From an uncultured Pedosphaera sp. (GTDB lineage Bacteria; Verrucomicrobiota; Verrucomicrobiia; Limisphaerales; Pedosphaeraceae): a stretch of 36,337 nucleotides of DNA. The notes beneath the pieces are model-generated. The model was not told the DNA's origin. It did no database searches and saw nothing but the letters and a program-made list of their open reading frames with translations. Position numbers and translations under genes: made by a program. Numbering within the stretch: the stretch's first letter is position 1; each line of letters begins with the position of its first letter. The stretch covers positions 1 to 36,337 of the forward strand of contig CAIXFN010000084.1 of the NCBI GenBank assembly GCA_903918755.1. The letters run 5' to 3'. Positions 1 to 13,613 of the stretch are shown here, piece by piece.

Positions 1-30
1 ATTGTTGCTCCAACCGAAGGGGATGTAATC

Positions 31-66
31 GCTTCAACGGGGCCGCGCTCTTGCGAGCGCGGAGAT
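31..66 (-). CRISPR. Leader-proximal CRISPR repeat (array truncated by window edge)
   Basis: A single repeat-like unit of about 36 nt contains a perfect 8-bp inverted repeat, CCGCGCTC at 43-50 and GAGCGCGG at 55-62, around a TTGC loop. Read on the minus strand it ends in CCCCGTTGAAGC, the kind of 3' end seen in repeats of subtype I-G/I-U loci. It lies downstream of cas2 in the same orientation, so it should be the first repeat after the leader. Bases 1-30 would then be the first spacer, cut by the window edge. Only one copy is visible, so exact repeat ends cannot be set and the array call rests on position, structure and resemblance. Confidence 0.72.
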
Positions 67-274
67 AGTCTTTCTATTACTTGTTCTGTCGCAAGGGCGC
101 AAGGCCCGGTTTGCGAGCGCCAGCCACCGGTAGGCGGGGAGGATCCAGGGTCGAACCCACCCCGCCCGGGTTAACCGCTGGCGGTGAACCACTTGCGACT
201 TGCGAGCGGGTCGGGGGTTGGCCTCGTCACCCCACCGCTCGCGGGTTACTTCAAATGTCAAAGAGCGCCGCGCC
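67..274 (-). promoter_or_regulatory. CRISPR leader
   Basis: This 208-bp non-coding stretch separates the cas2 stop codon from the first repeat and is read on the minus strand toward the array. It holds a boxA-like motif just after cas2 and three inverted repeats. These are GGCGGGG (133-139) with CCCCGCC (160-166) enclosing GGGTCGAACCC (148-158), two 10-nt arms with one mismatch at 169-178 and 181-190, and GCGAGCGG (202-209) with CCGCTCGC (235-242). The decamer TTGCGAGCGC of the repeat hairpin (51-60) also recurs at 111-120. The role as promoter and spacer-integration leader is inferred from position. Confidence 0.6.
256..267 (-). promoter_or_regulatory. boxA-like antitermination motif in CRISPR leader
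   Basis: The minus strand reads CGCTCTTTGACA, one substitution from the E. coli boxA core CGCTCTTTAACA bound by NusB/NusE (S10). It starts 7 nt after the cas2 stop. boxA upstream of CRISPR arrays is established as protecting long untranslated pre-crRNA from Rho. The same 12-mer occurs on the plus strand at 11027-11038 and 12043-12054. Function here is inferred. Confidence 0.55.
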
Positions 275-565
275 TCAAACCACATAACAAGGCGCGTCCA
301 AATTTGTATAGGGCAGTCCCAGCGCAGTGATGACCCGGTCGCCGCGTCCCTCCGCCGGTCCCAAGGTGACAAAAATGACCTGGTCTTCGTCATGCTTGAT
401 GAGGGCGGCCAGGGCGGTTTCCAGTTCCACCTTTTCCGCGGGATTCAATTCGCACTCGAAGATCGAGAATTGCAGGTGGTCGCCGAAATTGCCACAAGTT
501 TTGAAGACTTTGCGCAGGCGCTTCGCGTTCGCGATGTCATAACAGACAAGATAGGTGGTGCGCAT
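275..565 (-). CDS. cas2: Cas2, CRISPR adaptation subunit
   Basis: This 96-aa protein is the usual length for Cas2, the dimer that bridges two Cas1 dimers in the spacer integration complex. The N-terminus MRTTYLVCYDI shows the first beta strand and the conserved Asp10 of the ferredoxin-like fold. The middle contains the typical FSIFEC strand and the C-terminal half the VIFVTLGP strand. It starts 30 nt after the stop of the cas4-cas1 fusion and is the last gene of the operon, directly before leader and array. That placement and the match to the family make the call secure. Confidence 0.95.
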   Translation of the reverse strand: MRTTYLVCYDIANAKRLRKVFKTCGNFGDHLQFSIFECELNPAEKVELETALAALIKHDEDQVIFVTLGPAEGRGDRVITALGLPYTNLDAPCYVV

Positions 566-595
566 GGGGCAAAGCAGGGGCGGCGGGTTTGGATC

Positions 596-2908
596 TCATC
601 GGGTGAGGAGCGGCTCGTAGGCGGCGATTTCGCCGGTGAGGCTTTTGGCCAGCAGGCGGGCCTGCAATTCCAACGCCCGCCGGTAGCTCACTTTATAATC
701 AAAAACCGGGTGGGTGAGCAACGAGTTCATGCGCTGTTCATAGGTTTGGAAGAAGCGCTTGCGTCCGGCGGCGGACAGATTCACGGCCTGGCCCGCCCGG
801 ACAAAGTCCTTTTCCGTGATGACGCGATTGTTGAGGCAGCTCAGGACGGTGGATTCCGCGATGAGCGGCCGGAATTCCTCCATCAAATCCAGTCCCAGGG
901 CCGGGCGGCCAAAGCGGGGTTGATGATAAAAGCCGATGTAGGGATCAAAGCCCACGGCCAGGGCGGCCAGCGTGCAATCCTTGGCCAGCAGGCTGTAGGC
1001 GAGCGAGAGCATCGCGTTCACGGGGTCGGTGGGCGGCCGGCGGTTCCGGTGGGTGAAATTAAAAGTGAAGGCCGGCGGGGGAGCCGCGTTTTCCGGGAGT
1101 TCCAGGCCCGGGAGTTCGTCCTCCGCCATTTTCATCATGCCGCTGAAGTGCTGGAAATACTGGCTGGCCGCCGCCCCCTCAATGCCCAGCAACTCCCCCA
1201 CCCCGCCCGCGCCGAGCGCGTCCTCCGCCGCCTGTTTCAGCCGCAGGATCACGGGCTCGGGCGGTTCCCGATGATTCCGCATGAGCAGGGTGCGCTGGTT
1301 CCGGATCTTGCCGTGCACGAATTGGCGGGCCAGTTCGAGACACGCGCCGGACTCGCCGACCCGCCGGAATTGCTCGATCCGTAAGAACACGTTTTTCAGG
1401 CCGTGTCCCCGGGTGAGTCCGTAAAACCAGCCGCCCATGGAAAAGTAAGTGACCGGAACCTCCAATTCGCAGAGGGCCTGGATGGCTTGGGTGGAAATCT
1501 GGACATTGCCGAAAAGGGCCACATGGGACAAATCCCGCATGCGCACCTGCTCGATCAGCCGATCCTGGTCCTTGACGACCAGGACTTCGTCTTTGCAACC
1601 CACCCGGTAGCCCTGCGTGTTCAAGTACAAGGCCCGCGTGTCATCCCGGGCGGCGATCAACCGTCGCACCGGGTCGGCGCCCGCCGCCGGACCGGCGGCA
1701 GGTTCCCCGGCGCCCTCGTCCCGGGGGGCGGGTTCGTCCGCGCGGCCGAGCAGGCGGGTTTCATCCGGCAGGCAGACCGGCGCGAGCGAACAACGGACGC
1801 ACTTGGGGGAATGCGCCAGGGGCGCGGGGATCGGCCCCGCCGCGACGGCCCGGGCGGCCATGATCCGCTCGCGCACCCACTGTTCAAGTTCCGGCGTGAT
1901 CGGCAAGCGGACCCGCTGGCGGGTGCCCCGATAATAAATCACGCCTTCGTGGCAGAGGTAGCCATTGTCACGCAAGATGAGCGCCTGCAAACCGAGTTGC
2001 ATCCGGTCCGTGTCCCAGAGTTCGTTGCCTTCCACGCCCTCCCGGGGAGAGCCTGCCTTGTAATCCACGGGACAGACCTCGCTGGCGGTCCCGGCGTCGG
2101 CGTTCGCCTCCGCCTCCGCACCCGCCTCCGCACCCGCGGCTCCGGCGACGACGGTGCTTTCCACCAGGTCCATTTTGGCGAGCACGCCGAGGCGTTCGGA
2201 GCCCATCTGCACGGAGCGGGAATGAATAATGTCGGCTTCTGGTGTTTGGTCGGCGGGCGCCGCAGGGGTTGCGGGGGAAGCAGCCGGTTCCGGTGGTTGC
2301 GTGAGGGGTAAATCCGCTGCGGCGGACTCCGGGGCGGCTTTGGCTTTCGACTTATCCTTATCCCTGTCTTCGGCTTTGCCTTGGGCCGACGGCAACGCGC
2401 CGCTGCCGGCATCAACGCGCTGGTGGAGGGCTTCCCCGCGCAGGGTATCCACGCTTTCGACGAACACGCCTTCCACGAATTCGTAGTAGAACAAACGGGG
2501 ACAATAGACGAATTCGTTCAGCATCCGGGCGGGCAGCAGTTGCTGGCCGGATCCGGGCTCGGCCTGGGGAGCGGCGGGCGGGTCGTCCGGGAGGGGAACG
2601 GGGGACGCGGGGGGACGGGCGGCGGGAGGCTCCGTGGTAATTTTTTCACCCGCAGCCAAGAAGGGGGGCGAAGGGGTAGAATTCCTAGGTTCCGGGGTTA
2701 CTTCGGGTTCTGGCTTTTCACCCGCAACCGCGAAGGCAGGCACAGGGGGTAACCCGGAGGTTTCGTCGCCGGGCGGGTCGGGTGCAGATGCGGCAGCGGA
2801 CGGGGCCCAAAGCGTGGCGCCATCAGCGGACGCGGTGCGCGGCCGGGCGAACAGGTCCAACTCGCCGGTGCCCTCCCCTCCTCCGCCCTTTTTGGATTTT
2901 TTGGGCAT
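596..2908 (-). CDS. cas4-cas1: Cas4-Cas1 fusion protein of subtype I-G
   Basis: This 770-aa fusion joins a Cas4 nuclease, which trims and PAM-selects prespacers, to the Cas1 integrase. Residues 1-120 are a Pro/Ala-rich, probably disordered extension. Cas4 spans about 122-380: Cys136 and Cys370, Cys373, Cys379 form the Fe-S cluster set, and Asp247 with Asp282-Tyr-Lys284 forms the RecB-type nuclease core. A charged Ala/Pro-rich insertion (about 168-225) splits the Cas4 fold. Cas1 starts near 424 and shows its metal ligands Glu577, His662 (GFYH) and Asp674 (LDLMEEFRP). A GGAGGT Shine-Dalgarno lies at 2918-2923, 9 nt before the ATG. Such fusions are characteristic of I-G loci. The extension and insertion make it unusually long. 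Confidence 0.95.
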   Translation of the reverse strand: MPKKSKKGGGGEGTGELDLFARPRTASADGATLWAPSAAASAPDPPGDETSGLPPVPAFAVAGEKPEPEVTPEPRNSTPSPPFLAAGEKITTEPPAARPPASPVPLPDDPPAAPQAEPGSGQQLLPARMLNEFVYCPRLFYYEFVEGVFVESVDTLRGEALHQRVDAGSGALPSAQGKAEDRDKDKSKAKAAPESAAADLPLTQPPEPAASPATPAAPADQTPEADIIHSRSVQMGSERLGVLAKMDLVESTVVAGAAGAEAGAEAEANADAGTASEVCPVDYKAGSPREGVEGNELWDTDRMQLGLQALILRDNGYLCHEGVIYYRGTRQRVRLPITPELEQWVRERIMAARAVAAGPIPAPLAHSPKCVRCSLAPVCLPDETRLLGRADEPAPRDEGAGEPAAGPAAGADPVRRLIAARDDTRALYLNTQGYRVGCKDEVLVVKDQDRLIEQVRMRDLSHVALFGNVQISTQAIQALCELEVPVTYFSMGGWFYGLTRGHGLKNVFLRIEQFRRVGESGACLELARQFVHGKIRNQRTLLMRNHREPPEPVILRLKQAAEDALGAGGVGELLGIEGAAASQYFQHFSGMMKMAEDELPGLELPENAAPPPAFTFNFTHRNRRPPTDPVNAMLSLAYSLLAKDCTLAALAVGFDPYIGFYHQPRFGRPALGLDLMEEFRPLIAESTVLSCLNNRVITEKDFVRAGQAVNLSAAGRKRFFQTYEQRMNSLLTHPVFDYKVSYRRALELQARLLAKSLTGEIAAYEPLLTR

Positions 2909-2962
2909 TTACTGATGACCTCCGATCAGCCAGGGCGTAGCCGCCTTGGTGGCTTTGCTCAT
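2909..2962 (-). CDS. Possible 17-aa leader ORF coupled to cas4-cas1
   Basis: A mini-ORF encodes MSKATKAATPWLIGGHQ. Its ATG at 2962 is preceded by GGAGGT at 2966-2971, and its TAA at 2909-2911 directly abuts the cas4-cas1 ATG (TAAATG). Its last codons cover the Shine-Dalgarno of cas4-cas1, so its translation could couple to that gene. An in-frame upstream ATG at 3169 would give 86 aa but has no recognisable domain. Whether it is translated cannot be told from sequence. It occupies part of the only sizeable gap in the cas operon. Confidence 0.3.
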   Translation of the reverse strand: MSKATKAATPWLIGGHQ

Positions 2963-3205
2963 GGGACCTCCAAGCAACCATTGGAATGCTCTCGATGAGC
3001 TCAAACCAGTGCCCTGGGTGGATCCTCCTCCCTCCGCGGCTAGAACCGGGACGAACAGGCCGAGGCCGAAGTGGGCGTATGCTCCGGGCGAAGCACCCCT
3101 GGGCTGAGATAACGATTCTCCTTCACTCAAAACGATTCCGGTTGATTCCGGTGGCTGTTGATTTGTCAAAGCATTTCGAGGTCATCGTTGAATGGCATCG
3201 AGCGT
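2963..3205. other. Gap between csb3 and cas4-cas1
   Basis: About 240 bp sit between the csb3 stop and the mini-ORF before cas4-cas1, in an operon that is otherwise tightly packed. I see no conserved gene, hairpin with T-tract or clear promoter in it. It may separate the interference genes from the adaptation genes. Confidence 0.4.
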
Positions 3206-4138
3206 TTACAATTGGGCTGCGGGGGTAAAATTGCGGTATTTGCTCGTGGGGTTAATTCTTTGGCTTCTATAGGTCGCAGCCACGCCATACATCTCAAGGA
3301 CAATAGCAGAAGTTTCATCTCGCTCTAGAAGTTGTCTCAAACCCATCAGCGAACGAACTACATCCAACGCCAACCATCCCGTCCAGATCGGCCAGGTCAC
3401 GAAGGTGTCACGGCTGCCTCGACCACAAAAGCCAGTGGTGGCAACAGTGGTGCTGGAAGTTGGAATGACTGAAAAAAAAGGCAACGACGCAATGGCCAAA
3501 AGGTTTGCCCCTCGCACAGTGCGGACGGGGTCTTTCGATGGCTCATCCCAGCGCAGGGCATAGCGACGATCGTCTTCTGCATCCCACCGCATGGTGGGGC
3601 TTGAGTCCCGGTAGCGCCACGGGCCGAAAAGCGCCTCACGCAATTGCTCCAGAGTCGTTTCCTTCGCCAGCAGGTTCATGAATTCCAAGAAGTGTTGATG
3701 CCCTGCGCCGCTCATCGTCCGAAACGCGGTGTCTAGGATTGCGCCTTCTTCATTTCCCACCGCGTCACAACCAAACGCGGCGACCAAGCTTGCGGCGGTC
3801 AAATCGTTGTGGCCGAGAAAGTCTTCGGCTGACCTGGCGGCGAGTTTGCGAAAAACTCCACGAGGAATCTTCAAGTCCTTGTCCACAGTAATGACATAAT
3901 GATCGGCGAGACCGCGTAATGCGGCATGCACCTTTTCGACAATCACATCAGGGGCCGCTGGGGAGGGCAACCGGAGCACGGGACAATATGAGCCTGCTCG
4001 GGGAACCCAGCGCATACGGACTTCGCTGCCTTCCGGCAGCATGGCCAGCGTGCGGAAAGCCCCCAGTGAAGCCATGAATCCCAGCAAGCTCGAACCTTGC
4101 AATGCCGGGAGGGCTAATTCGGTGGATGAAGTCTTCAT
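3206..4138 (-). CDS. csb3: Csb3/Cas8-like subunit of subtype I-G Cascade
   Basis: A 310-aa protein belonging to the small Cas8-like family found only in I-G/I-U loci, where it is the candidate large subunit for PAM recognition. The N-terminus (LQGSSLLGFMASLGAFRTLA, residues 13-32) is the typical opening helix of Cas8/Csx17-type proteins. The block reading FGPWRYRDSSPTMRW followed by DDRRYALRWDEPSKDPVRTVRGAN, and the ATTGFCGRGSR segment, are family signatures. The start is set at 4138 because its ATG overlaps the cas3 TGA (ATGA); a longer in-frame start at 4246 would lie inside cas3. Csb3 versus a short Csx17/Cas8u is a naming question I cannot settle without alignment. Confidence 0.75.
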   Translation of the reverse strand: MKTSSTELALPALQGSSLLGFMASLGAFRTLAMLPEGSEVRMRWVPRAGSYCPVLRLPSPAAPDVIVEKVHAALRGLADHYVITVDKDLKIPRGVFRKLAARSAEDFLGHNDLTAASLVAAFGCDAVGNEEGAILDTAFRTMSGAGHQHFLEFMNLLAKETTLEQLREALFGPWRYRDSSPTMRWDAEDDRRYALRWDEPSKDPVRTVRGANLLAIASLPFFSVIPTSSTTVATTGFCGRGSRDTFVTWPIWTGWLALDVVRSLMGLRQLLERDETSAIVLEMYGVAATYRSQRINPTSKYRNFTPAAQL

Positions 4139-7100
4139 GGTTTCGCGCTGGCTTGCGGGTTGGCACTGGCAGTTTGATCGGCTAATCGGAGCACCGTTTC
4201 GAGGAAGGCAATGCCCCACCAACCGTAGCGGCGGTTCACCTGCCAAAAGCGTTCCGCCAGGCCCGAGTCCAGCGCATGGGCGGGATGTTCGAGGCGTTCG
4301 GTTGCAGTCACGGCAACTGTCGTGCCGTTCATGGGTAAGCTCACGTCGAGCGGAGCTTCGTCGCTCACCAGCGGCGCAAAGGGGCGGGCGTAACCGTGGT
4401 GGGTGGCGGTGAGATGCAATGCCAGCGCTTGGAGCACCAGATCTGGGGGAAGTGCGGTCGTTCCCCCGGCGCTTTCCGCCATTTGGACTGACAGCATTTC
4501 ATGGCGGAAGCCCACCGGCAGCTCAGCGCGCTGCCTCGTGGCGCGGCGCGCCGCGGCGGAATAGGCGATGGAGCCGGATTTAGCGAGGAATGTCTCACTC
4601 GCCATGGCGGCAAAAGGAGTCGTGCCGCGAAGCATGGCTTGGAAGCGCGGATCGACCTTTCCCCAATCATGCACCGCGGCGGCGGCGATTAGCGCTTCGC
4701 GCCAAAATGTGAGGGGCAGCAAAGCAAGGACGCTTTCGATTCGGGCGAGGACATCTTTGGTATGGTCGCGGAGTTCCTGCGGCAGAATTGCCTCCAAAAG
4801 CGTGTCGGCATCGGTATCGCCAGTCTCGTTTGCTTCTTCCAGATTCTGGCGAGGAAGGGGGCCGCGGGCCGTGATGACGAAGCCCATGTCCCAGGGATAA
4901 GACTCCACGCAGAGTCGCACCGCCTTCTTTTCCAAATGATCGATTACTTCGCGCTGGTCCTTCGTCAGTAGCCATCCGGAATGTTCCTCGTTCAGCAGTC
5001 GAGCTAGTAACGCTTTGATTTTCGGGATGCTCCATTCCTTCTCGGGGTCCCGTGCCATTTCGCTCAGTTCAGCGGCAGCGGTGCCCGGATCCGGTTCTGG
5101 CCAGAGGTCCGGATGGATTCGCAAGATGGCCGACTTCCGGGCAGAAGCCGCGGCACGTTCCGCGACGTCGACACGTCGTACCGCTTCCGAGTGCAGCAAA
5201 TTGCCGGGCGTGACCTGAGGATCGGCAGGCGCTCCGGGTAGGTGTCCAAGGGCCTGCCATCCGCCGCCTTGAACTCGGAGGACGATGGTGTCGCCCGGGC
5301 GAAGGGCGGAGGTGCGGTGGGCAAAAAATCTCTCATCCGGACCACGCCAAACCAGGGCAGCTATTTCGCGCTCTTCCTCGCCCAGTTTCTTGTCAGACGG
5401 TTGCACGCTTTCAACGCAATCGCCGGATGAATCCTCGAATTTACCCCGCGACCCCAACCAATCGCAGAATACGTAGAGCGGCACGGGCAGGCATTCAGCG
5501 CTGGTCGGTGGGCACAGGCTGAGGATGTCCGTCCAATCGTCCTCACTGAGTGTCTCGGGCAGGTCGCCACGCCAGCACACTTGCACGTCGGCCATCTCGC
5601 GCTGCGGGCCGTGGAGAAAGAGCGCAATATCGGGTTCAACTGCGGGAGCGGGATTTGTCTGGACCCAGCAATCCAAATAGGCCGGGAGCAATACCGGGGC
5701 ATCGGCCGTCGGCGAAAGCATCGCCGCGAGGGCTGCATCAGTGCCGGCATGGCGGAGCGCATCAACCGCACCGGTCATGGCGTTAATGCCAAAATCAACC
5801 ACTCCGTCCTGCGCCAGAAGGCTCAACCAGCGCCAGGTCCGTGGGATGGCGTTCCCATAAATGGGGTCGCACGGCGCAGCCTCATCAAGTTTTTCAACGG
5901 GTAAATCCTGATCGCCCGGCAGAACGATCACTGAACGGGCGGCAATCGCACGCCCGCCACGGTTGAGCCGTCCGAAGCGCTGTCGGAGCGCATCGAGGCT
6001 CGCGGCCTCGGTCACCAGGGCGTCAAAATCCAAGTCAGCTCCCACCTCCAGGCATTGCGTCGAGACGACGATGAAGGGTCCGGATTGGGGAGAACTCGGG
6101 GTCGCTCCAGTCTTGAGGCGGTCCTGAATTTCTTTCGTGGCCGCCTCCCGGTCGAACTGGCGCATCCGTCCGATCAAAAGGGTCACCCGGCCCGGGTGTG
6201 CCTCCTGCAATTTTGCAGCGATGGAGCGCGCCGTGCCCACGCGATTAACCATAATGGCGATGGAGCGTGGATGGTTTTCCGCGAGAATCTTTTCGGCCTC
6301 TTCCGTGAGCCGCTTTGCCATTTGCTCCTCGCGAGCTTTTCCTTTCCCCTTCGGCTCCACAATCAGTCGCGCCGGCTTCGCGGCCCGCAGGCGCGCTTTC
6401 AATACGGGGTGCTCATGATCGTTGGCGGTAAGCGTGAGTTTCTGGTCTGCCTGCGTGCCGGCTGGAGGGGTTGCCGTCAGTTGAATAAGCTGAAACGGAA
6501 GTCGCACCGTCTCACACCCGGCTGGTTGGTGCAGACGATAGCGCTTGACCCATTCCAGCGTTTGGATGAAGGGGCGGCTGATGTGCGCTTCGTCGATGAT
6601 CAACAAGCTGTCCTGCGCGACGAGAGCTGCCTGGATTGGCCAGGCTTGCGGACTGACTCCGTAGCCGCGGAAGAGCAGCCGCGACCCGGCTTGATCGACC
6701 GTGCTGCAGATAAGCATCGGTTGGAGCAACGATCCTGCCCAACTGCGGTCCCGATAAATTCCCCCTCGAAGCTGCGCGCGCGTTAGCGGGGCTGCCCCGA
6801 TTTCTCCGCAAAGTTTGCGCAACGCTGCGGCCACCCGCCCGACCACCGATTCGGAAGCCGCCTCCCGGAGTTTTTTGCAAAGCATTCCGGCGCGCTCGTA
6901 AGCCTCGTCCACAATAACGCGGCGATTGACGATAAAAAAAATGCGCCGGCCTTGCATCCTTTCTGCCAATGGCAAAGCGGCTTGCCGGGCTAATGCGAAG
7001 ACGGCGGCATCAAGGCAGGCTGTTTTGCCACTCCCGGTCGGAACAGCAACGTAGTCGGGCGCCTTGCCGGCGCAAAGGCGGCGGGCAAATTCATGCTGCC

Positions 7101-7182
7101 AGGGAAACGGTTCGCAGCCAGTCCCCCATAGTTCGCGGAAGAAAGCGGGAAAATCGTCGGCGGTCAGGGTGGGCAAATTCAT
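4135..7182 (-). CDS. cas3: Cas3 helicase-nuclease with C-terminal HD domain
   Basis: A 1015-aa protein that unwinds and degrades target DNA recruited by Cascade. The SF2 helicase is N-terminal: Walker A VPTGSGKT (47-54), DEAH box (197-200), TATPP (236-240), STQCLEVGADLDFD (374-387) and motif VI QRFGRLNR (401-408). The HD nuclease is C-terminal: His838-Asp839 followed by WGK, His894, His928-His929 and Asp1002. Helicase-then-HD order is the reverse of most Cas3 proteins and is typical of I-G. The start at 7182 (MNLPTLTADDF) is chosen because its ATG overlaps the csb2 TGA. The stop overlaps csb3 the same way, indicating translational coupling. All key residues are present, so it should be active. 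Confidence 0.94.
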   Translation of the reverse strand: MNLPTLTADDFPAFFRELWGTGCEPFPWQHEFARRLCAGKAPDYVAVPTGSGKTACLDAAVFALARQAALPLAERMQGRRIFFIVNRRVIVDEAYERAGMLCKKLREAASESVVGRVAAALRKLCGEIGAAPLTRAQLRGGIYRDRSWAGSLLQPMLICSTVDQAGSRLLFRGYGVSPQAWPIQAALVAQDSLLIIDEAHISRPFIQTLEWVKRYRLHQPAGCETVRLPFQLIQLTATPPAGTQADQKLTLTANDHEHPVLKARLRAAKPARLIVEPKGKGKAREEQMAKRLTEEAEKILAENHPRSIAIMVNRVGTARSIAAKLQEAHPGRVTLLIGRMRQFDREAATKEIQDRLKTGATPSSPQSGPFIVVSTQCLEVGADLDFDALVTEAASLDALRQRFGRLNRGGRAIAARSVIVLPGDQDLPVEKLDEAAPCDPIYGNAIPRTWRWLSLLAQDGVVDFGINAMTGAVDALRHAGTDAALAAMLSPTADAPVLLPAYLDCWVQTNPAPAVEPDIALFLHGPQREMADVQVCWRGDLPETLSEDDWTDILSLCPPTSAECLPVPLYVFCDWLGSRGKFEDSSGDCVESVQPSDKKLGEEEREIAALVWRGPDERFFAHRTSALRPGDTIVLRVQGGGWQALGHLPGAPADPQVTPGNLLHSEAVRRVDVAERAAASARKSAILRIHPDLWPEPDPGTAAAELSEMARDPEKEWSIPKIKALLARLLNEEHSGWLLTKDQREVIDHLEKKAVRLCVESYPWDMGFVITARGPLPRQNLEEANETGDTDADTLLEAILPQELRDHTKDVLARIESVLALLPLTFWREALIAAAAVHDWGKVDPRFQAMLRGTTPFAAMASETFLAKSGSIAYSAAARRATRQRAELPVGFRHEMLSVQMAESAGGTTALPPDLVLQALALHLTATHHGYARPFAPLVSDEAPLDVSLPMNGTTVAVTATERLEHPAHALDSGLAERFWQVNRRYGWWGIAFLETVLRLADQTASANPQASAKP

Positions 7183-8846
7183 TTGAGCAGGGAGCCGAGT
7201 GGTTTGCAGAGGCCATATCCTCGGAAGCGTCCCGCACCGAGGAGGAGCGGACCTTGCACCTCGCAGGGAAACTGGATCAGCACATGCACCTGCTGACGAT
7301 GCGCGGTGCCTTCCTTGCCGGGAAGCCAGGGCATCCCGCCCGGACCGGGCCGGGAGCGCGGGGCGCCCCGATGCCACGAGGTTTTGTCCACATCAATCAA
7401 TTCCGGCTTTGGCAACGCTTGACGCTCGCAGGCCTGGGCGATGCTCGCGGCGACTTCATCGTGCCATTGCGCCCGCTCGGTTTGCTGGTCGTGCTTCGGA
7501 TGCCGGTCAAGGACGACGGGCGTGACACTCGCCCAGACCGAGGACGGCTCGCACCAAGTCGCCGACCGCAGGGCTAGCGGCGGCAGACTGCGTTCTTCGC
7601 GTCGCAGCGTCCACGTCCCAAGCTTGCCCATAACCAGCTCCGGTTCGAGGTCCTCGCCGGATGAGCCAAACAGCCTTCCCCGCAAACAAACGGCCCGTTC
7701 CGCGGCGGGAATGGTCCGGGGAAAGGCCAGGGCCAATCCCAAAATATGACCATCGGCATGTTCCGCTCCCACGAAAGCGAGCGGGAAGAGCGCCATATGC
7801 CCGCCAGTTGCGGGCTCTCCTGGCGCGCTGTGGCCGGTGAACCACTCCGGTTTGCCTTCCCCCTTTTGCAGTAAATACCCCCGTAGCGCAGCGGTGAGGG
7901 CCGCGGTGGATTCCAGGCCAAGCATCGGTCCTTCCAGCTTCGTCAAAACTAGCAGTTCGGAATCGAAAACCGTCGAAACGTTGGCGGCTTGCGTTTCGTC
8001 CACCCGCGAGTAATGCGCGGTCCGCCCCGGAGAAGGACGCAGCCGCACCGGGGCGTTCGCGCTTTTGCTCCAAACAATGCCGAATCGTTCTATAAAGGCT
8101 GATTGTGCCTGGGCTTTTGCCGCCCCGGTTCCAGTCAAAATTGCTGCCGAAAGTTCGTAGAAGTCGTCGATTTCACCCGCGTTGAAGCATTGGTCCAGCT
8201 CGGTCAGGAAGCCCGGCGCAGGAATCCGCAGTTGCACCCCGCGGCGTGTCTTTGTTGCCTTCGCGTTTGGCTCGTAATCTGGCGAACATCCGCCCTCCAT
8301 CTCGGAAACCCAAACTTGGGCCAGCGAGGAGGAATGTCCAATACGGTTGACTTTCCGCGCAAGTCCAGTGAGCGCGGCCAGTATCTCGGCCGAAGGTTCC
8401 GCGGTGTGCCAATGCAGATAAACATGCCGATGCACACCTTCACCGCCGACATAAAGCGCGGGGAATGTCCGCTCCTGGCGACTGCGTTGCTCCGGCATAA
8501 CGCCGAGGGCGGATCGCATTTCAGATGCTTTCACGCGAGCAGGATTTTGCGGAACTCCGGGGTCGTTGACCGGCACATAAACTTTCACCACGTCGCGCGG
8601 AGAAGCTTCCGGCCAATTCATTTTTGGCGGACTCTGGCCTTCCAGCCATTCCAGAGCCGCACGCTCAACAACCCAGGCAGATTCCGCTGCAGGGCCATCT
8701 TCGGGCAGCGGTCTGGTTTCATAGTGCGCCGCCACCAGAGCCATAAAGACACGGGCGGGATGCGGCGGCCACTCGGCCTTTTCCCGGCTGGCCGCGTCCG
8801 TCATAACCGCAACACCGGTGATGAATTCAATTCCCAGGGCAAACAT
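7179..8846 (-). CDS. csb2: Csb2, Cas5-Cas6 fusion of subtype I-G
   Basis: A 555-aa protein of the Csb2 family, which fuses a Cas5-like RAMP (5' handle binding, Cascade foot) to a Cas6-like pre-crRNA endonuclease. The N-terminus has the family block EWPPHPARVFMALVAA after the first strand FALGIEFITG. The C-terminus carries the glycine-rich RAMP loop GPLLLGAGRFRGYGL (532-546), typical of Cas6. It begins 14 nt after the csb1 stop and overlaps cas3 by 4 nt. It should process the array whose repeat hairpin is at 43-62. The catalytic residue cannot be assigned confidently by eye. Confidence 0.9.
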   Translation of the reverse strand: MFALGIEFITGVAVMTDAASREKAEWPPHPARVFMALVAAHYETRPLPEDGPAAESAWVVERAALEWLEGQSPPKMNWPEASPRDVVKVYVPVNDPGVPQNPARVKASEMRSALGVMPEQRSRQERTFPALYVGGEGVHRHVYLHWHTAEPSAEILAALTGLARKVNRIGHSSSLAQVWVSEMEGGCSPDYEPNAKATKTRRGVQLRIPAPGFLTELDQCFNAGEIDDFYELSAAILTGTGAAKAQAQSAFIERFGIVWSKSANAPVRLRPSPGRTAHYSRVDETQAANVSTVFDSELLVLTKLEGPMLGLESTAALTAALRGYLLQKGEGKPEWFTGHSAPGEPATGGHMALFPLAFVGAEHADGHILGLALAFPRTIPAAERAVCLRGRLFGSSGEDLEPELVMGKLGTWTLRREERSLPPLALRSATWCEPSSVWASVTPVVLDRHPKHDQQTERAQWHDEVAASIAQACERQALPKPELIDVDKTSWHRGAPRSRPGPGGMPWLPGKEGTAHRQQVHVLIQFPCEVQGPLLLGAGRFRGYGLCKPLGSLLK

Positions 8847-8860
8847 CGTGAGCCTTCAGT

Positions 8861-10072
8861 TTATTCCGCCGTGGCGTCCGCTGGCGTCTTGGTCGCAATA
8901 TCCTGCGAACGCTTGAGGAGAGCGACGAGATTAGGCGAGGGAGTGAGTTTCACCGGCTCCTTTTGCCAAACCAAACCGAGCTTTTCCGCTGCCGCCACGG
9001 CTTCCCCCAAAAGTTTGATGGCGTCATTTGCCGTAATGATGAACTCGGTAGGAACCTTCCCCGGCGTCTCCAATAATTCCCACTTCATCACGTTTGTCGG
9101 CCAGAGCAGGCAGCGGGAACGAAGGTCAAATCCGCTCTCTGCAGCCAGCGTAGCCGCCGTGAGAGCCAGCGCGGCGAGAACCGTCCGCGCCGCCGCATCT
9201 CGCTCGGGGGTCGTCTTGCCATCCACGGGGAAGCGGAGCTTGCGCAGTGCAGGCAGGGACAGGACAATCGTTTGCTCGGCATAGTCGACCGTTGCCCCAC
9301 CGGCGCCGCCTGGTTTGGTCACATCTGGTGGAATATTTCCATGGTTCACTTCGGATGGAGAAACCGCATCTTTCGCCTTATCACCTGCGAGCTCGTAACT
9401 ACCATCGGGCTTTTTGATCACTTTTGCGGCCGCCCGCATTCCCAGCGGATCAATGCGACTACTCGTCTTGACCCCGATTTGCGCATTTACTCCAATAATT
9501 TCTGAAACCAGCGCCCGTTGAAACTTCGCGCCGAGCCCTCCTTTCGGGCCGGTGGAATCCCAAAGCCCAAAAATGAGCGCCGTTGGACAAAGCTTATATA
9601 GTGGTGTCGCATTTTGTAGGCTCGCTTGATCCAGTGATTTTCCCAAATCGCTTTTCCGGAAGGGCTGCCCCTCATGCAAACTGTCCCGAAGAATCGCATC
9701 AGCAATCCGATGGGGGGCCTCCAGGCTGCTCACCCGGCCCACTTCATCGAGTAAACCAAGACCAGTAAAATCCACGTTCAAGACCGGAACGCCCGTGAGC
9801 GTGCCCGCGTCGAGCGCACGTTGCAACGCTTCCTCTAAGCGGTTCGCTTGCGCTTGGACTGAATCAAGCAGCACGCAGGGCACCTTCACGCCATTGATCT
9901 GCCGCTCCTCCCGGGCATATACTGCTCCTGCGTAAGTTGGTGGAAATACTTTATCCCCTTCGCCTCCGGCCGGCTGGAGTCGGGTTCGGGACCGAAAGGC
10001 TGCTGCATCTTCGCTGACAGCCTTTTTGAGTCTGTGTAGGTCGAGCGGTTTGGTTTCCGTTGTCGTGTTCAT
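8861..10072 (-). CDS. csb1: Csb1, Cas7-type backbone subunit of subtype I-G
   Basis: A 403-aa protein of the Csb1 family, the Cas7 equivalent that polymerises along the crRNA spacer. Recognisable blocks are LNVDFTGLGLLDEVGRVSSLEAPHR in the N-terminal third (split here at about 98-122), FGLWDSTGPKGG (168-179), KFQRALVSEIIG (183-194), SSRIDPLGM (204-212) and EVNHGNIPP (241-249). It is the first gene of the cas operon. No Shine-Dalgarno is visible before the ATG at 10072. Upstream are a helicase-like remnant and a candidate promoter. Confidence 0.92.
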   Translation of the reverse strand: MNTTTETKPLDLHRLKKAVSEDAAAFRSRTRLQPAGGEGDKVFPPTYAGAVYAREERQINGVKVPCVLLDSVQAQANRLEEALQRALDAGTLTGVPVLNVDFTGLGLLDEVGRVSSLEAPHRIADAILRDSLHEGQPFRKSDLGKSLDQASLQNATPLYKLCPTALIFGLWDSTGPKGGLGAKFQRALVSEIIGVNAQIGVKTSSRIDPLGMRAAAKVIKKPDGSYELAGDKAKDAVSPSEVNHGNIPPDVTKPGGAGGATVDYAEQTIVLSLPALRKLRFPVDGKTTPERDAAARTVLAALALTAATLAAESGFDLRSRCLLWPTNVMKWELLETPGKVPTEFIITANDAIKLLGEAVAAAEKLGLVWQKEPVKLTPSPNLVALLKRSQDIATKTPADATAE

Positions 10073-10663: not shown

Positions 10664-11026
10664 TCCCGCCCGCCAATCCCGCCGAGCCGCGCAAAATCGA
10701 TTAGACCGCGGCCTGAGTCCCTGTGGGTGGTTTCATTCATGCACGGTGCTTCAATTGCTTATATATACGTAAGCGGGGCGTCGCTTCTTGCAAAAATCTG
10801 CCGCCGCCCCGCCGAATTCCAGTTCGATTGCCGTCATTCCAACAGGCGGGGTGGGACATCCGCTGGGTAACCCCGGGGTTGCAGCTGCGAAATTCTTGCA
10901 AAATCCCCGCTAAATTCCTCCCATAGGAATACGAAACGTCCGATCCCATGCTAAAACCAACTGCCGGCTGGCCTGGCCAGACTTGGCCTCGCTGGCCCGC
11001 CCGCCCTTTCCGGGCTCGAGCGGACT

Positions 11027-11038
11027 CGCTCTTTGACA
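11027..11038 (+). promoter_or_regulatory. boxA-like motif, element copy 1
   Basis: CGCTCTTTGACA, identical to the motif in the CRISPR leader and to that in element copy 2, and followed in both elements by TATTGAA. It lies about 80 nt before the long hairpin. Confidence 0.5.
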
Positions 11039-11118
11039 TATTGAACGAATTTGCTCGATCCCGGCCATCGCCGGGCAACCGCCCGCCGAGATCGGACCGG
11101 ATGCGAAAGGCGGCCCCT

Positions 11119-11160
11119 GCCGCGCGCCGCTGCCCAACTGTAACCGGCAGCGCGCGCGGC
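11119..11160 (+). ncRNA. Long hairpin of element copy 1
   Basis: GCCGCGCG (11119-11126) pairs with CGCGCGGC (11153-11160). After one bulged C, CGCTGCC (11128-11134) pairs with GGCAGCG (11146-11152), closing an 11-nt loop. The 15 base pairs recur in copy 2. The element is called ncRNA only as a candidate. Confidence 0.4.
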
Positions 11161-11642
11161 AACCCGCCCTCCACCTCACTGGCCCTCGAACCAAAATGAG
11201 CGACCGCGATTGCGCCCGTTTCCCCACAATCCCGATAGAAGCCGTCAAGTTTATCCCCGAAGACCCACAGGGCATTTCCTCCGTCCCGATCTGACCGCCA
11301 AAATGCCCGAAGTCCAGGTTTAACAAGGTTAGTCCAACTTCCGGACATTTAACCTGCCCGGCTCCGCCCACCCTGAATCGAATCCATTCTGCGCTTTTTG
11401 CGCCTCTTGCGGCCAATCAAATTCCGGGATTCCCGCTCCGAGTCCAGGTTTCGAACAGTCAATCCAGTTTCGCCTCGGGCACGGGCTGAAGACGCCGGTA
11501 ACGGCTTCGTTCATCATCAGTTACGTTCCCCTTTGTGCTCTTTGTGAACCATGGTGGCCAATCAAATTCCCGGATTCCCCCTCCGAGTCCAACCTCCGGA
11601 CACTTAGTCCAGTTTCGCGTCCGACGACCAGTCCCCCGTCTT

Positions 11643-11673
11643 GTCCGGCTCAGCTTTCGGCGGAGACGGAAGC
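11643..11673 (+). repeat. REP-like hairpin unit
   Basis: An imperfect inverted repeat beginning GTCCGG and ending GACGGAAGC with an AGCT/GC core. Related copies lie at 12729-12759, 12886-12916 and 13614-13644, with an inverted copy at 12447-12477. Confidence 0.5.
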
Positions 11674-12042
11674 ACCTGAGCGAAGGGGGAAGCTGCCTCA
11701 GCGAGGCGGAAGGGGGGTGAGATCTTCCCCTGCCCCTCGGTCCCGCTCCCTTACCTCCGTTGGCTCCGGTGAAAAGGTCCTTTCTTCCGAGTCCAGGTTC
11801 CAGACAGTTAACCTGCCCGGCGTAGCTGCTCTCAGCGAAGAGGGGTCCAGTTTCAACACCACATCTCAGATGTTCCCACTCCGTAACCGCCCTTGGTTCC
11901 TGTGAAAATTCTCCCAAATCCCCCGCTAAATTCCTACCGGAGGAATACGGAACGCCCGATCCCATGCTAAAACCAACCGAGGGTTGGCCTGAGCTGAACT
12001 GGCTTCGCCCGCCCGACAGCCCCCTCCGGGCTCGGGCGGACT

Positions 12043-12054
12043 CGCTCTTTGACA
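12043..12054 (+). promoter_or_regulatory. boxA-like motif, element copy 2
   Basis: CGCTCTTTGACA followed by TATTGAA, identical to copy 1 over 19 bases despite divergence around it. Confidence 0.5.
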
Positions 12055-12128
12055 TATTGAATAAATTTGTTTGATCCCGGCAATCCCCGGGCAACCGCCC
12101 GCTGGATCGGAAGCGAAGGACGGCCCCT

Positions 12129-12180
12129 GCCGCGTGCCGCTGCCCAACTGTACAGTACAGTAACCGGCAGCGCGCGCGGC
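12129..12180 (+). ncRNA. Long hairpin of element copy 2
   Basis: GCCGCGTG (12129-12136) pairs with CGCGCGGC (12173-12180) using one G-U pair. CGCTGCC (12138-12144) pairs with GGCAGCG (12166-12172). The loop is 21 nt instead of 11 nt. Confidence 0.4.
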
Positions 12181-12403
12181 AACCCGCCCTCCGCGCCACT
12201 GGCCACGCCCTCGATCCAAAACGCGCGGCAACCATTGCATTGCACCTGCTTTCCCACAATCCCGATGGAATCCGTCGAGTTTATCCTCGAAGATTAACCT
12301 GGCATTTCCTCAATCCTGATCTGACCCCCAAAATGCTCGAAGTCCAGGTTTAACAAGGTTAGTCCAGTTTCAACACCGGTACAAAGGCTGGGGAGGTCAT
12401 GGG

Positions 12404-12573
12404 TTTAGACAGGATGGACAGGATTATCCCCGCGTCGCCCAAGGGGCTTCCCCCTTCGCTCAAAGCTTCGGAGGACAGGATGCAGGGCAGGCAGCATGGA
12501 AGACGGAGGTCGGATGGGCCGCCTGGCTTTGGTTCGGATCCATCATGCTCAATCCTGTGAATCCTGTCTCAAT
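12404..12573. repeat. Segment bounded by inverted GACAGGAT repeats
   Basis: The left end reads AGACAGGATGGACAGGATTA (12408-12427). The right end reads CAATCCTGTGAATCCTGTCT (about 12550-12569), nearly its reverse complement. The ~165 bp unit also contains the inverted REP-like unit 12447-12477. Similar AATCCTGT phrases are familiar as intergenic repeats in many environmental genomes. Confidence 0.45.
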
Positions 12574-12639
12574 TCCGGCGTTCATGGTTTTGGCTTCATG
12601 GGAGCTTTTTTAAACACGGGCAGAAGTTTTGAAAAGCCG

Positions 12640-12716
12640 CCTTCGCAAGCACGCTTCGGCGAGCTTCTGTTAAATGTTGCGCTCCCCTCCGAGTCCAGGT
12701 TCCGGACACTTAACCT
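12640..12716 (+). repeat. Composite repeat, copy A
   Basis: Head module CCTTCGC... ending GCTTCTGTTAAAT, about 10 nt, then tail module CTCCGAGTCCAGGTTCC and GGACACTTAACCTG. The tail contains CAGGTT and AACCTG as an inverted pair around a 10-nt loop. The same head-tail order occurs at 13269-13337 and inverted at 36095-36165. Confidence 0.6.
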
Positions 12717-12728
12717 GCCCGGCGTCCT

Positions 12729-12759
12729 GTCCGGCGAAGCTGCCAGCGAAGACGGAAGC
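12729..12759 (+). repeat. REP-like hairpin unit
   Basis: GTCCGGCGAAGCT, then GCC, then AGCGAAGACGGAAGC. Almost identical to 13614-13644 and attached directly to the tail of composite copy A. Confidence 0.55.
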
Positions 12760-12885
12760 TGCTCTCAGCGAAGGCGGGTCCAGTTTCGCGTCTGGCGACC
12801 TGCCCCCCGACCCATCCGGCGTAGACTCCGGGAAACACGAAGCGTTCGCGAAGGGAGAAGTGGGTCCAGTTTCGTCCGCCATCCC

Positions 12886-12916
12886 GTCCGGCGTAGCTCA
12901 AAGCGAAGACGGAAGC
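12886..12916 (+). repeat. REP-like hairpin unit
   Basis: GTCCGGCGTAGCTCAAAGCG followed by AAGACGGAAGC; arms TCCGGCGTAGCT and AGCGAAGACGGA are imperfectly complementary. Confidence 0.55.
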
Positions 12917-13268
12917 CTCAGCGACGGCGGAAGCATGGGCGCGACCTTCTGTGAAGAGGTCCATTTCTGTCCTAGTCCAGGTTTAACAAGGTTAGTCCAA
13001 TTTCCCGACATTTAACCTGCCTGACGAGCTGCCAGCGAAGCCGGAAGCGTTCGCGAAGGGAGAAGTCGGGTCCAGTTTCGCGCCCGGGGCGTTCAAGATT
13101 CACCTTGCCAGTTTTGTTCACATGGTTTGATCGGTTCCCCTCCCCTATCGTGGTCAATCAATTTCCGGGATTCCCCCTCCGAGTCCAACCTCCGGACACT
13201 TCATCCAGGTTTGGAGCGGCCGCCACTGCCCGCGTGATTACCGAGCTGTATCGCCTTGCGCCCCAACG

Positions 13269-13337
13269 CCTTCGCGACCTTTGCGAACTTCTGTTTATGA
13301 TCCCGATCCCCTCCGAGTCCAGGTTCCGGACACTTAG
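13269..13337 (+). repeat. Composite repeat, copy B
   Basis: Head CCTTCGCGACCTTTGCGAAC and CTTCTGTTTATGA, then the tail CTCCGAGTCCAGGTTCCGGA and CACTTAG. Here the tail is followed by the GTCCAGTTTCGCG module instead of AACCTG, showing that modules recombine or terminate at fixed points. Confidence 0.6.
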
Positions 13338-13613
13338 TCCAGTTTCGCGGCCATCACTGGCAGAAATCACCCGCCGGCATCGCTCATCCCTGAATTGGTT
13401 CTTTTTGACCAGCTTCTTCTACTGGTGGCGATCAATCTCCGGTCATCCCGTCCCAGTCCAGTTTCACGGCCAACACTGGCTAAAATCGTCCACCGACCTC
13501 GCTCACCCCTGAAATGGTTATTTTTTGAGATTTATGTGCATTTTCGCGGCCAATCGATCCCCGGTCTCCCCGCTCGAGTCCAGGTTTCGGACAGTTAACC
13601 TGCCCGGCGTCCT

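Follow-up and report, generated by a model that had tools for sequence, protein, structure and literature searches.

Organization of the locus

The window, that is, the whole 36,337-nt stretch of DNA analysed here, comes from a 7.2 Mb Verrucomicrobia-like genome. Its minus strand carries Type I-G CRISPR-Cas genes (Cas2, Cas4-Cas1, Cas8g, Cas3g, Cas56g and Cas7g) at 278-10072, and its plus strand carries two copies of a boxA-bearing element, each followed by a repeat array. The features of the two copies are as follows.

10901-11174, plus: whole leader element 1 (promoter module and structured RNA); match to covariance model R1, 208 bits
10914-10930, plus: palindromic, activator-site-like part of the promoter of element 1 (ATTCCTCCCATAGGAAT); one of 66 sites
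10949-10953, plus: -10-like TGCTA of element 1, at a fixed distance from the palindrome; conservation over the 66 sites
10991-11025, plus: region of the predicted hairpin just 5' of boxA in element 1, degenerate here (helices 4-5)
11028-11045, plus: boxA of element 1 (GCTCTTTGACATATTGAA), in a 26-nt block identical to copy 2
11109-11168, plus: GC-rich main hairpin of element 1 (helices 6-8); fold z -4.69
11311-11870, plus: repeat array after element 1, units AGTCCAGGTT-N10-AGTCCAGTTTC; repeat families D2-D8, strand-specific
11917-12194, plus: whole leader element 2; R1 match, 238 bits
11930-11946, plus: palindromic, activator-site-like part of the promoter of element 2; exact TTCCTACCGGAGGAATACG site
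11965-11969, plus: -10-like TGCTA of element 2; conservation over the 66 sites
12007-12041, plus: predicted hairpin just 5' of boxA in element 2 (family helices 4-5)
12044-12061, plus: boxA of element 2, in the 26-nt block identical to copy 1
12118-12192, plus: GC-rich main hairpin of element 2, with an enlarged loop; fold z -6.02, family structure
12341-13480, plus: repeat array after element 2; motif counts downstream of boxA

A previous sequence-only reading of this DNA had described the two copies as paired elements. They are indeed direct copies, with 84% identity between 10890-11086 and 11906-12102 and 85% between 11209-11341 and 12239-12371. The identical block around boxA, given then as 19 nt, does exist (GCGGACTCGCTCTTTGACATATTGAA, with boxA at 11028 and 12044) but is 26 nt long, and the single-base difference in the hairpin (C at 11125, T at 12135) is as claimed. 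Element 2 is flanked on both sides by repeats belonging to the array of element 1 (interval 11844-12341).

A multicopy family in the source genome

A search of the source genome (7,194,820 bases, 118 contigs) with copy 1 returned 60 matching pieces. Twenty-one of 27 drawn copies were aligned by sequence (alignment A1), L015, L019, L021, L022, L028 and L029 being left out as partial or divergent; a structure was written by hand, and R1 was built on this alignment. At E ≤ 0.001, R1 gave at least 81 matches on 51 of the 118 contigs, with scores from 276 down to 25 bits; this count rests on 150 of 5343 candidates scored and may be a lower bound. When R1 was applied to the extracted loci, 83 matches were obtained, one of them antisense to another. 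Meanwhile, the boxA string GCTCTTTGACATA, with at most one mismatch, occurred 80 times in the genome versus 6 for its reversed control. Because of these 81 matches, the pairing of the two copies in the window is incidental, copy 2 merely lying within the array of copy 1. The elements are often found near contig ends.

The window gave no match in Rfam 15, and its part from 10700 to 12500 gave nothing but sub-threshold matches at E ≤ 10. As nothing in the window rose above a gathering threshold, a known Rfam family was rejected. The element DNA had no match among phages and plasmids, and no description of such units was found in the open-access full-text literature searched. The earlier description as an unrecognised RNA element is hence correct with respect to Rfam, but the RNA does not stand alone and serves as leader to a repeat array.

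A structured RNA around boxA

The proposed structured RNA family with a boxA was borne out by the alignment. Double changes were found in 16 of 51 pairs, compared with 7.3 ± 1.8 in shuffled alignments, and none of 500 shuffles reached 16; standard pairs made up 84.6% of the 1028 cells in A1. A second covariation measure, further pair types, was weaker, with 20 of 500 shuffles reaching the observed value. When the 3' partners were slid, pairing fell to 35-41%, although this comparison is biased towards a structure that was drawn from the same sequences. Covariation supports RNA helices in the hairpin before boxA (helices 4-5: 80 and 82% of cells paired, double changes in 4 of 12 pairs) as well as in the GC-rich hairpin that follows (81-92% paired cells in helices 6-8).

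Folding of single sequences gave z values of -2.0 to -6.0 in 9 of 10 cases and -1.16 for 12014-12074, a stretch cut short. The long GC-rich hairpin that had been claimed for both window copies folds in both (z -4.69 and -6.02). The hairpin 5' of boxA was not reproduced by the single-copy folds: copy 1 folded otherwise (z -3.64), and the copy 2 fold (z -1.16) used a stretch missing part of the 5' strand. This hairpin is predicted from the family alignment, in which boxA with a hairpin directly 5' is present at the family level. A second subfamily in the source genome has the same layout with a conserved hairpin of its own (GCCGCGTGCCGTCCCAACCGGCACGCGGC).

A wobble pair in the outer stem had been put forward as evidence that the plus strand is transcribed. 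In the best 47 of 83 rows, the flagged pair is T-A 21 times, T-G 13, C-G 4 and C-A 1, with 4 other mismatches and 4 gaps, and the 13 T-G against one C-A favour the plus strand. The whole structure is undecisive, however, with G·T 47 versus A·C 45 over the five RNA helices and 80 versus 73 in the best 47 of 83 rows, and a strand call by whole-structure wobble was rejected. We assign the plus strand because boxA, promoter, ORF and array direction agree.

A hairpin directly followed by boxA is also the order of rrn leaders, and boxB-boxA leaders of rRNA operons, degraded and dispersed through the genome as copies, would share it. We regard such an origin as extremely unlikely. The window is free of rRNA, as are 11 other loci (140.5 kb), and the promoter and an additional 3' hairpin are conserved as a unit, ahead of a repeat array. 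A 16S search of the source assembly gave no match, leaving no rrn leader of its own to compare with.

The 5' module resembles a phage late promoter

The whole element had been taken for RNA. The remainder fits the proposed structured RNA, but the first ~50 nt look like promoter DNA. We picked 66 sites in the loci examined by a degenerate palindrome pattern (AAATTCCTACCGTAGGAATAC type) that does not include the TGCTA box. At a fixed, ungapped distance of 16 nt, TGCTA was conserved at T 95%, G 98%, C 86%, T 95% and A 95% over these sites. The 19-nt promoter core, with at most one mismatch, occurred 46 times in the source genome (control, 0), and three times in total in 96 other relatives versus 8 in controls. 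By our own count, the centre of the palindrome lies near -41.

One arm position of the palindrome is invariably C in the 21 A1 copies, and G stands opposite in 18 of them; across the 66 sites, where the pattern itself fixes the C, G stands opposite in only 68%. As the arm C is kept while the partner varies, the palindrome behaves as a protein-binding site and not as paired RNA. An RNA hairpin at this place was rejected: four of six pairs are invariant in A1 and the other two depart only by broken pairs, and the second subfamily, with AGCAAT opposite an unchanged ATTCCT, also disfavours it.

Two of the exact promoter cores listed lie away from R1 matches. One of them, on contig C88, heads a contig-end fragment of a Gp27-like ORF. 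The other lies at C90:95235-95253, 56 nt ahead of the leading gene in a minus-strand run of Mu-like phage morphogenesis genes, which extends from 95.2 to 76.8 kb (18.5 kb). This run gave matches to TerL (PHROG 5909, 1.5e-27), the Mu portal (PF06074, 3.5e-55) and head protease, scaffold and major head proteins. No small-terminase match was obtained among the proteins scanned from the run; an unmatched 189-aa protein encoded directly upstream of TerL could be an unrecognised small terminase. Downstream of the run lies an O-acetyltransferase-like gene, followed by a boxA element at 74.3-74.6 kb.

In phage Mu, the C activator site is located upstream of or overlapping the -35 region of promoters for late phage genes (PMC4461284). 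The module is similar to Mu late promoters, having late phage genes behind it and a putative activator site next to or overlapping -35; it differs in its operator sequence and in the reuse of the motif at ~65 other sites. With its palindromic putative activator site at a fixed distance from the -10 box and its position ahead of phage late genes, the 5' module appears to be phage-late-promoter-like.

Long copies encode a Gp27/small-terminase-like protein

Long copies carry an ORF between the promoter module and the boxA RNA, and short copies have none. The ORF start was present in 12 of 14 loci scanned. In 11 of these 12 copies the promoter motif starts 52-53 nt before the ATG, the twelfth lying 20 nt from the end of its contig. 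BoxA follows the stop codon by 71-246 nt in 8 of the 10 copies whose stop lies in the sequence and is absent within 700 nt of the stop in the other 2. The protein scan covered seven proteins, from ORFs around 13 loci. The ORF matched PHROG 426 (terminase small subunit) at 7e-7 and 9e-7 and Pfam PF11985 (Mu Gp27) at 2e-4 to 0.34, the latter below the cut-off in all four of its proteins scanned. Searches of the genome contigs and of IMG/VR with a single ORF protein found no relative.

Over the first 240-245 codons, the median dN/dS was 0.17 (7 copies) and 0.16 (5 distinct copies, with one locus entered twice) in two paralogue groups. The ORF is under purifying selection. In L062, L109 and L115, all that stands in place of the ORF is a start-stop frame of four codons, for example ATGGAAAGTGGCTGA.

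A strand-specific repeat array follows boxA

The array is composed of degenerate TCCAG-type direct repeats, typically AGTCCAGGTTCCGGACACTTAATCCAGTTTCG. In the window, the first boxA is followed within 3 kb by 21 repeat motifs and the second by 14, and none lie on the opposite strand. Over 81 boxA sites (a few of them not elements), the density on the boxA strand was 2.9/kb at 0-250 nt, 8.2 at +250-500, 5.2 at +500-750 and 2.6 at +750-1000, compared with 0-0.17/kb on the opposite strand (0.05/kb at +250-500) and 0-0.82 upstream on the same strand.

The same dependence on strand was seen for the R1 matches, of which 81 were used after 2 of the 83 with less than 600 nt downstream had been dropped. 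At least one same-strand repeat was found within 1.5 kb downstream in 64 of the 81 and at least two in 59, while 17% of random anchors in the same loci had a repeat. Opposite-strand repeats occurred downstream in 3 of 81, and upstream repeats in 14. Nine of the 17 matches without a repeat within 1.5 kb are, by our own reading, 5' parts of ORF copies. The string TTAATCCAGTTTC occurred 168 times in the source genome (control, 0) and twice in 39 other relatives. Among 379 repeat-to-repeat intervals, lengths of 20-39 nt and 100-160 nt were commonest and long ones rare. Toxin-antitoxin-like genes occur in two of the long intervals (ParE, 5e-4, and UPF0175, 9e-6, below the cut-off; DUF3368, 3e-9, above it), and the ORFs of a third had no match at all. 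The L039 and L050 arrays contain about six head-to-tail, iteron-like 20-nt repeats (GTCCAGTTTCCAGACGGTTG type).

Such genes within an array could suggest an integron-like cassette system, in which the element would be attI/promoter and the array a cassette array. The genome does encode an integron integrase (search profile TIGR02249): behind the 3' end of the two main intI copies (C93 and C95), a boxA element lies at ~140-200 bp on the same strand, and a third intI fragment is at C46:6-188. We nevertheless hold this explanation to be very improbable. Integron arrays were rejected since attC-like R''/R' pairs (RYYYAAC...GTTRRRY) were no commoner than in shuffled sequence (50 versus 46 in 0.81 Mb; the 50 include 14 that are the real C93 sites, counted on both strands). 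The arrays in the five stretches inspected contained no such pairs, and the genuine C93 attC sites are on the far side of intI from the element. C93 itself (L039 6500-12350) is a classic integron with a truncated intI and seven attC sites of 93-108 nt.

A boxA leader ahead of an untranslated directional array is likewise reminiscent of CRISPR. Membership in this class was rejected: the array repeats are degenerate and irregularly spaced over the 379 intervals, and the units are recurrent and resemble one another. BoxA has reportedly been described in CRISPR leaders before. On the minus strand of the window, a boxA (GCTCTTTGACATT, 254-266) stands directly after cas2, followed by what, judged by eye, resembles a first type I-G CRISPR repeat and then by the contig edge; window 1-300 is a probable CRISPR leader with boxA. 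In the same-genus genome G001, a boxA (TTCTTTGACATTTT) lies in the CRISPR leader directly upstream of a CRISPR array (L200). The presence of boxA before other untranslated arrays in the lineage fits the boxA role proposed below.

Occurrence in other genomes

Under stricter filters, R1 matched two of 58 relatives, the source genome and, weakly, G002. Among 320 genomes of the order, only the source genome and, weakly, G153 were matched, i.e. one of 319 others, and G001 gave no R1 match under these filters. One Gp27-like ORF of G001 (L159) has, by eye, a diverged promoter module. The boxA string was also searched in five relatives, where the inspected loci were informative for G006 and G001 only.

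G006, from another genus of the same family, has a similar layout with different sequences. A TTGCAAA upstream module was present at 7 of the 9 boxA sites examined (out of 14 exact sites), with CTTGCAAAGCTTGCAAA in six of these. CTTGCAAAGCTTGCAAA also precedes three extracted Gp27-like ORFs in G006, two of which are one place; no boxA was seen behind these ORFs because the loci end at contig edges. Downstream, repeats of AATCCAGG type are confined to the boxA strand (11.9/kb at +200-400, 0 on the opposite strand), and there are a few upstream.

A boxA-like string within 1 kb downstream was found in 1 of 33 related ORF loci from named genomes (Verrucomicrobia, subdivision 3, Limisphaerales and Pedosphaera among others), five of which have less than 50 nt downstream. 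In the MAG PLIU01 (palsa_1400), four Gp27-like ORFs (L264, L266, L268 and L272) have in common an upstream region containing TGATAAAA, which reads TGATAAAC in one case. A CACTT-rich stretch precedes this sequence in three of the four, and three run off contig ends; they may be elements of this kind with a different operator. G004 has 17 Gp27-like ORF matches, many of them short, in one genome; no boxA was found downstream in the 17 loci inspected, and other short direct repeats were seen upstream by eye.

The dispersed and lineage-specific distribution, the frequent proximity to contig ends and the placement of one copy within the array of another are what a non-autonomous MITE-like repeat would produce, with hairpins and promoter as passengers of no cellular or phage function. 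Against such a repeat stand the compensatory changes, the fixed promoter spacing, the purifying selection on the ORFs, the strand-specific arrays and the repetition of the layout in G006 with different sequences, all of which point to selection. We therefore judge it improbable.

A host-owned multicopy noncoding RNA or regulatory system is another candidate, one that would act independently of phage from the promoter of a host regulator also used by the resident phage. An RNA structure conserved in many copies, subfamilies with their own hairpins and short copies without an ORF would all suit it. It is at odds with the lineage-specific expansion (down to the lack of R1 matches in the same-genus genome), with a promoter that heads a phage structural operon and with the phage-type gene in long copies. 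We consider this explanation rather unlikely, at about one chance in four.

Discussion

The architecture of these units, consisting of promoter, RNA, optional ORF and directional array, is well supported. Within the literature searched, we know of no class that has a structured RNA with boxA, a strand-locked array and a late promoter of phage type, together with an optional small-terminase-like gene, in ~80 copies per genome. Our tentative explanation, which we put at a little below even odds, is that they are leader-array units driven by a phage late promoter, either satellite-like passengers of a Mu-like phage or dispersed parts of it. In relation to that phage they would probably be satellite-like relatives or servants.

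Such units might work in the following way. The palindromic activator site, 16 nt upstream of the TGCTA box, would fire on induction of the matching Mu-like phage or phage-derived particle operon; the motif does stand ahead of the phage operon. As read from the sequence, the transcript of long copies would first encode the Mu Gp27/small-terminase-like protein, and that of short copies would lead straight into the RNA. The RNA is predicted to fold in the order hairpin, boxA and long GC-rich hairpin, with support from covariation. NusB and NusE associate with BoxA RNA (PMC4807359). By analogy with established boxA biology, boxA would recruit NusB/S10-type antitermination, so that the polymerase may cross the untranslated array without Rho termination. 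The array would be the business end, and its repeats would most likely serve, in the DNA or in its RNA copy, as pac- or cosB-like sites bound by the terminase-like protein. A role of the units as satellites or in packaging is putative.

The nearest comparison is with PICIs, which are ~10 kb or more in size. The units described here measure 0.3-2 kb plus array, with ~80 matches per genome and a boxA RNA, and we do not claim PICI membership for them. The candidate terminase small subunit gene, with its PHROG 426 matches and its Pfam matches below the cut-off, was found in 12 loci versus 81 R1 matches. Some PICIs carry a terminase small subunit homologue directing packaging, and PICIs possess integrase and replication genes; pac is the site recognised by TerS, and cosB of lambda is made up of repeated TerS sites (PMC6092414). 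The likeness to PICIs and SaPIs would lie in the small-terminase-like gene of some units, and TerS with its repeated sites is the nearest working analogy.

HEARO-type RNAs are also a structured family with an ORF in some copies. Unlike them, the present family has no Rfam match and a Gp27-like ORF, and it is followed by a repeat array.

A more far-reaching reading, to which we give a low probability, is a decentralised, phage-derived system for DNA packaging or gene transfer. The late promoter would run the 18.5 kb particle operon, about a dozen dispersed genes would supply small terminases, and the ~80 boxA-led arrays, crossed by antiterminated polymerase, would be packaging sites or sites at which replication starts. 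If this were true, particles could take up DNA from many regions of the host genome.

Should the tentative explanation given above hold, the units would represent phage satellites of a minimal kind, or else a scattered system of gene transfer, in a phylum that has received little study. It would also mean that boxA protects a long untranslated transcript in a further setting besides rRNA and CRISPR.
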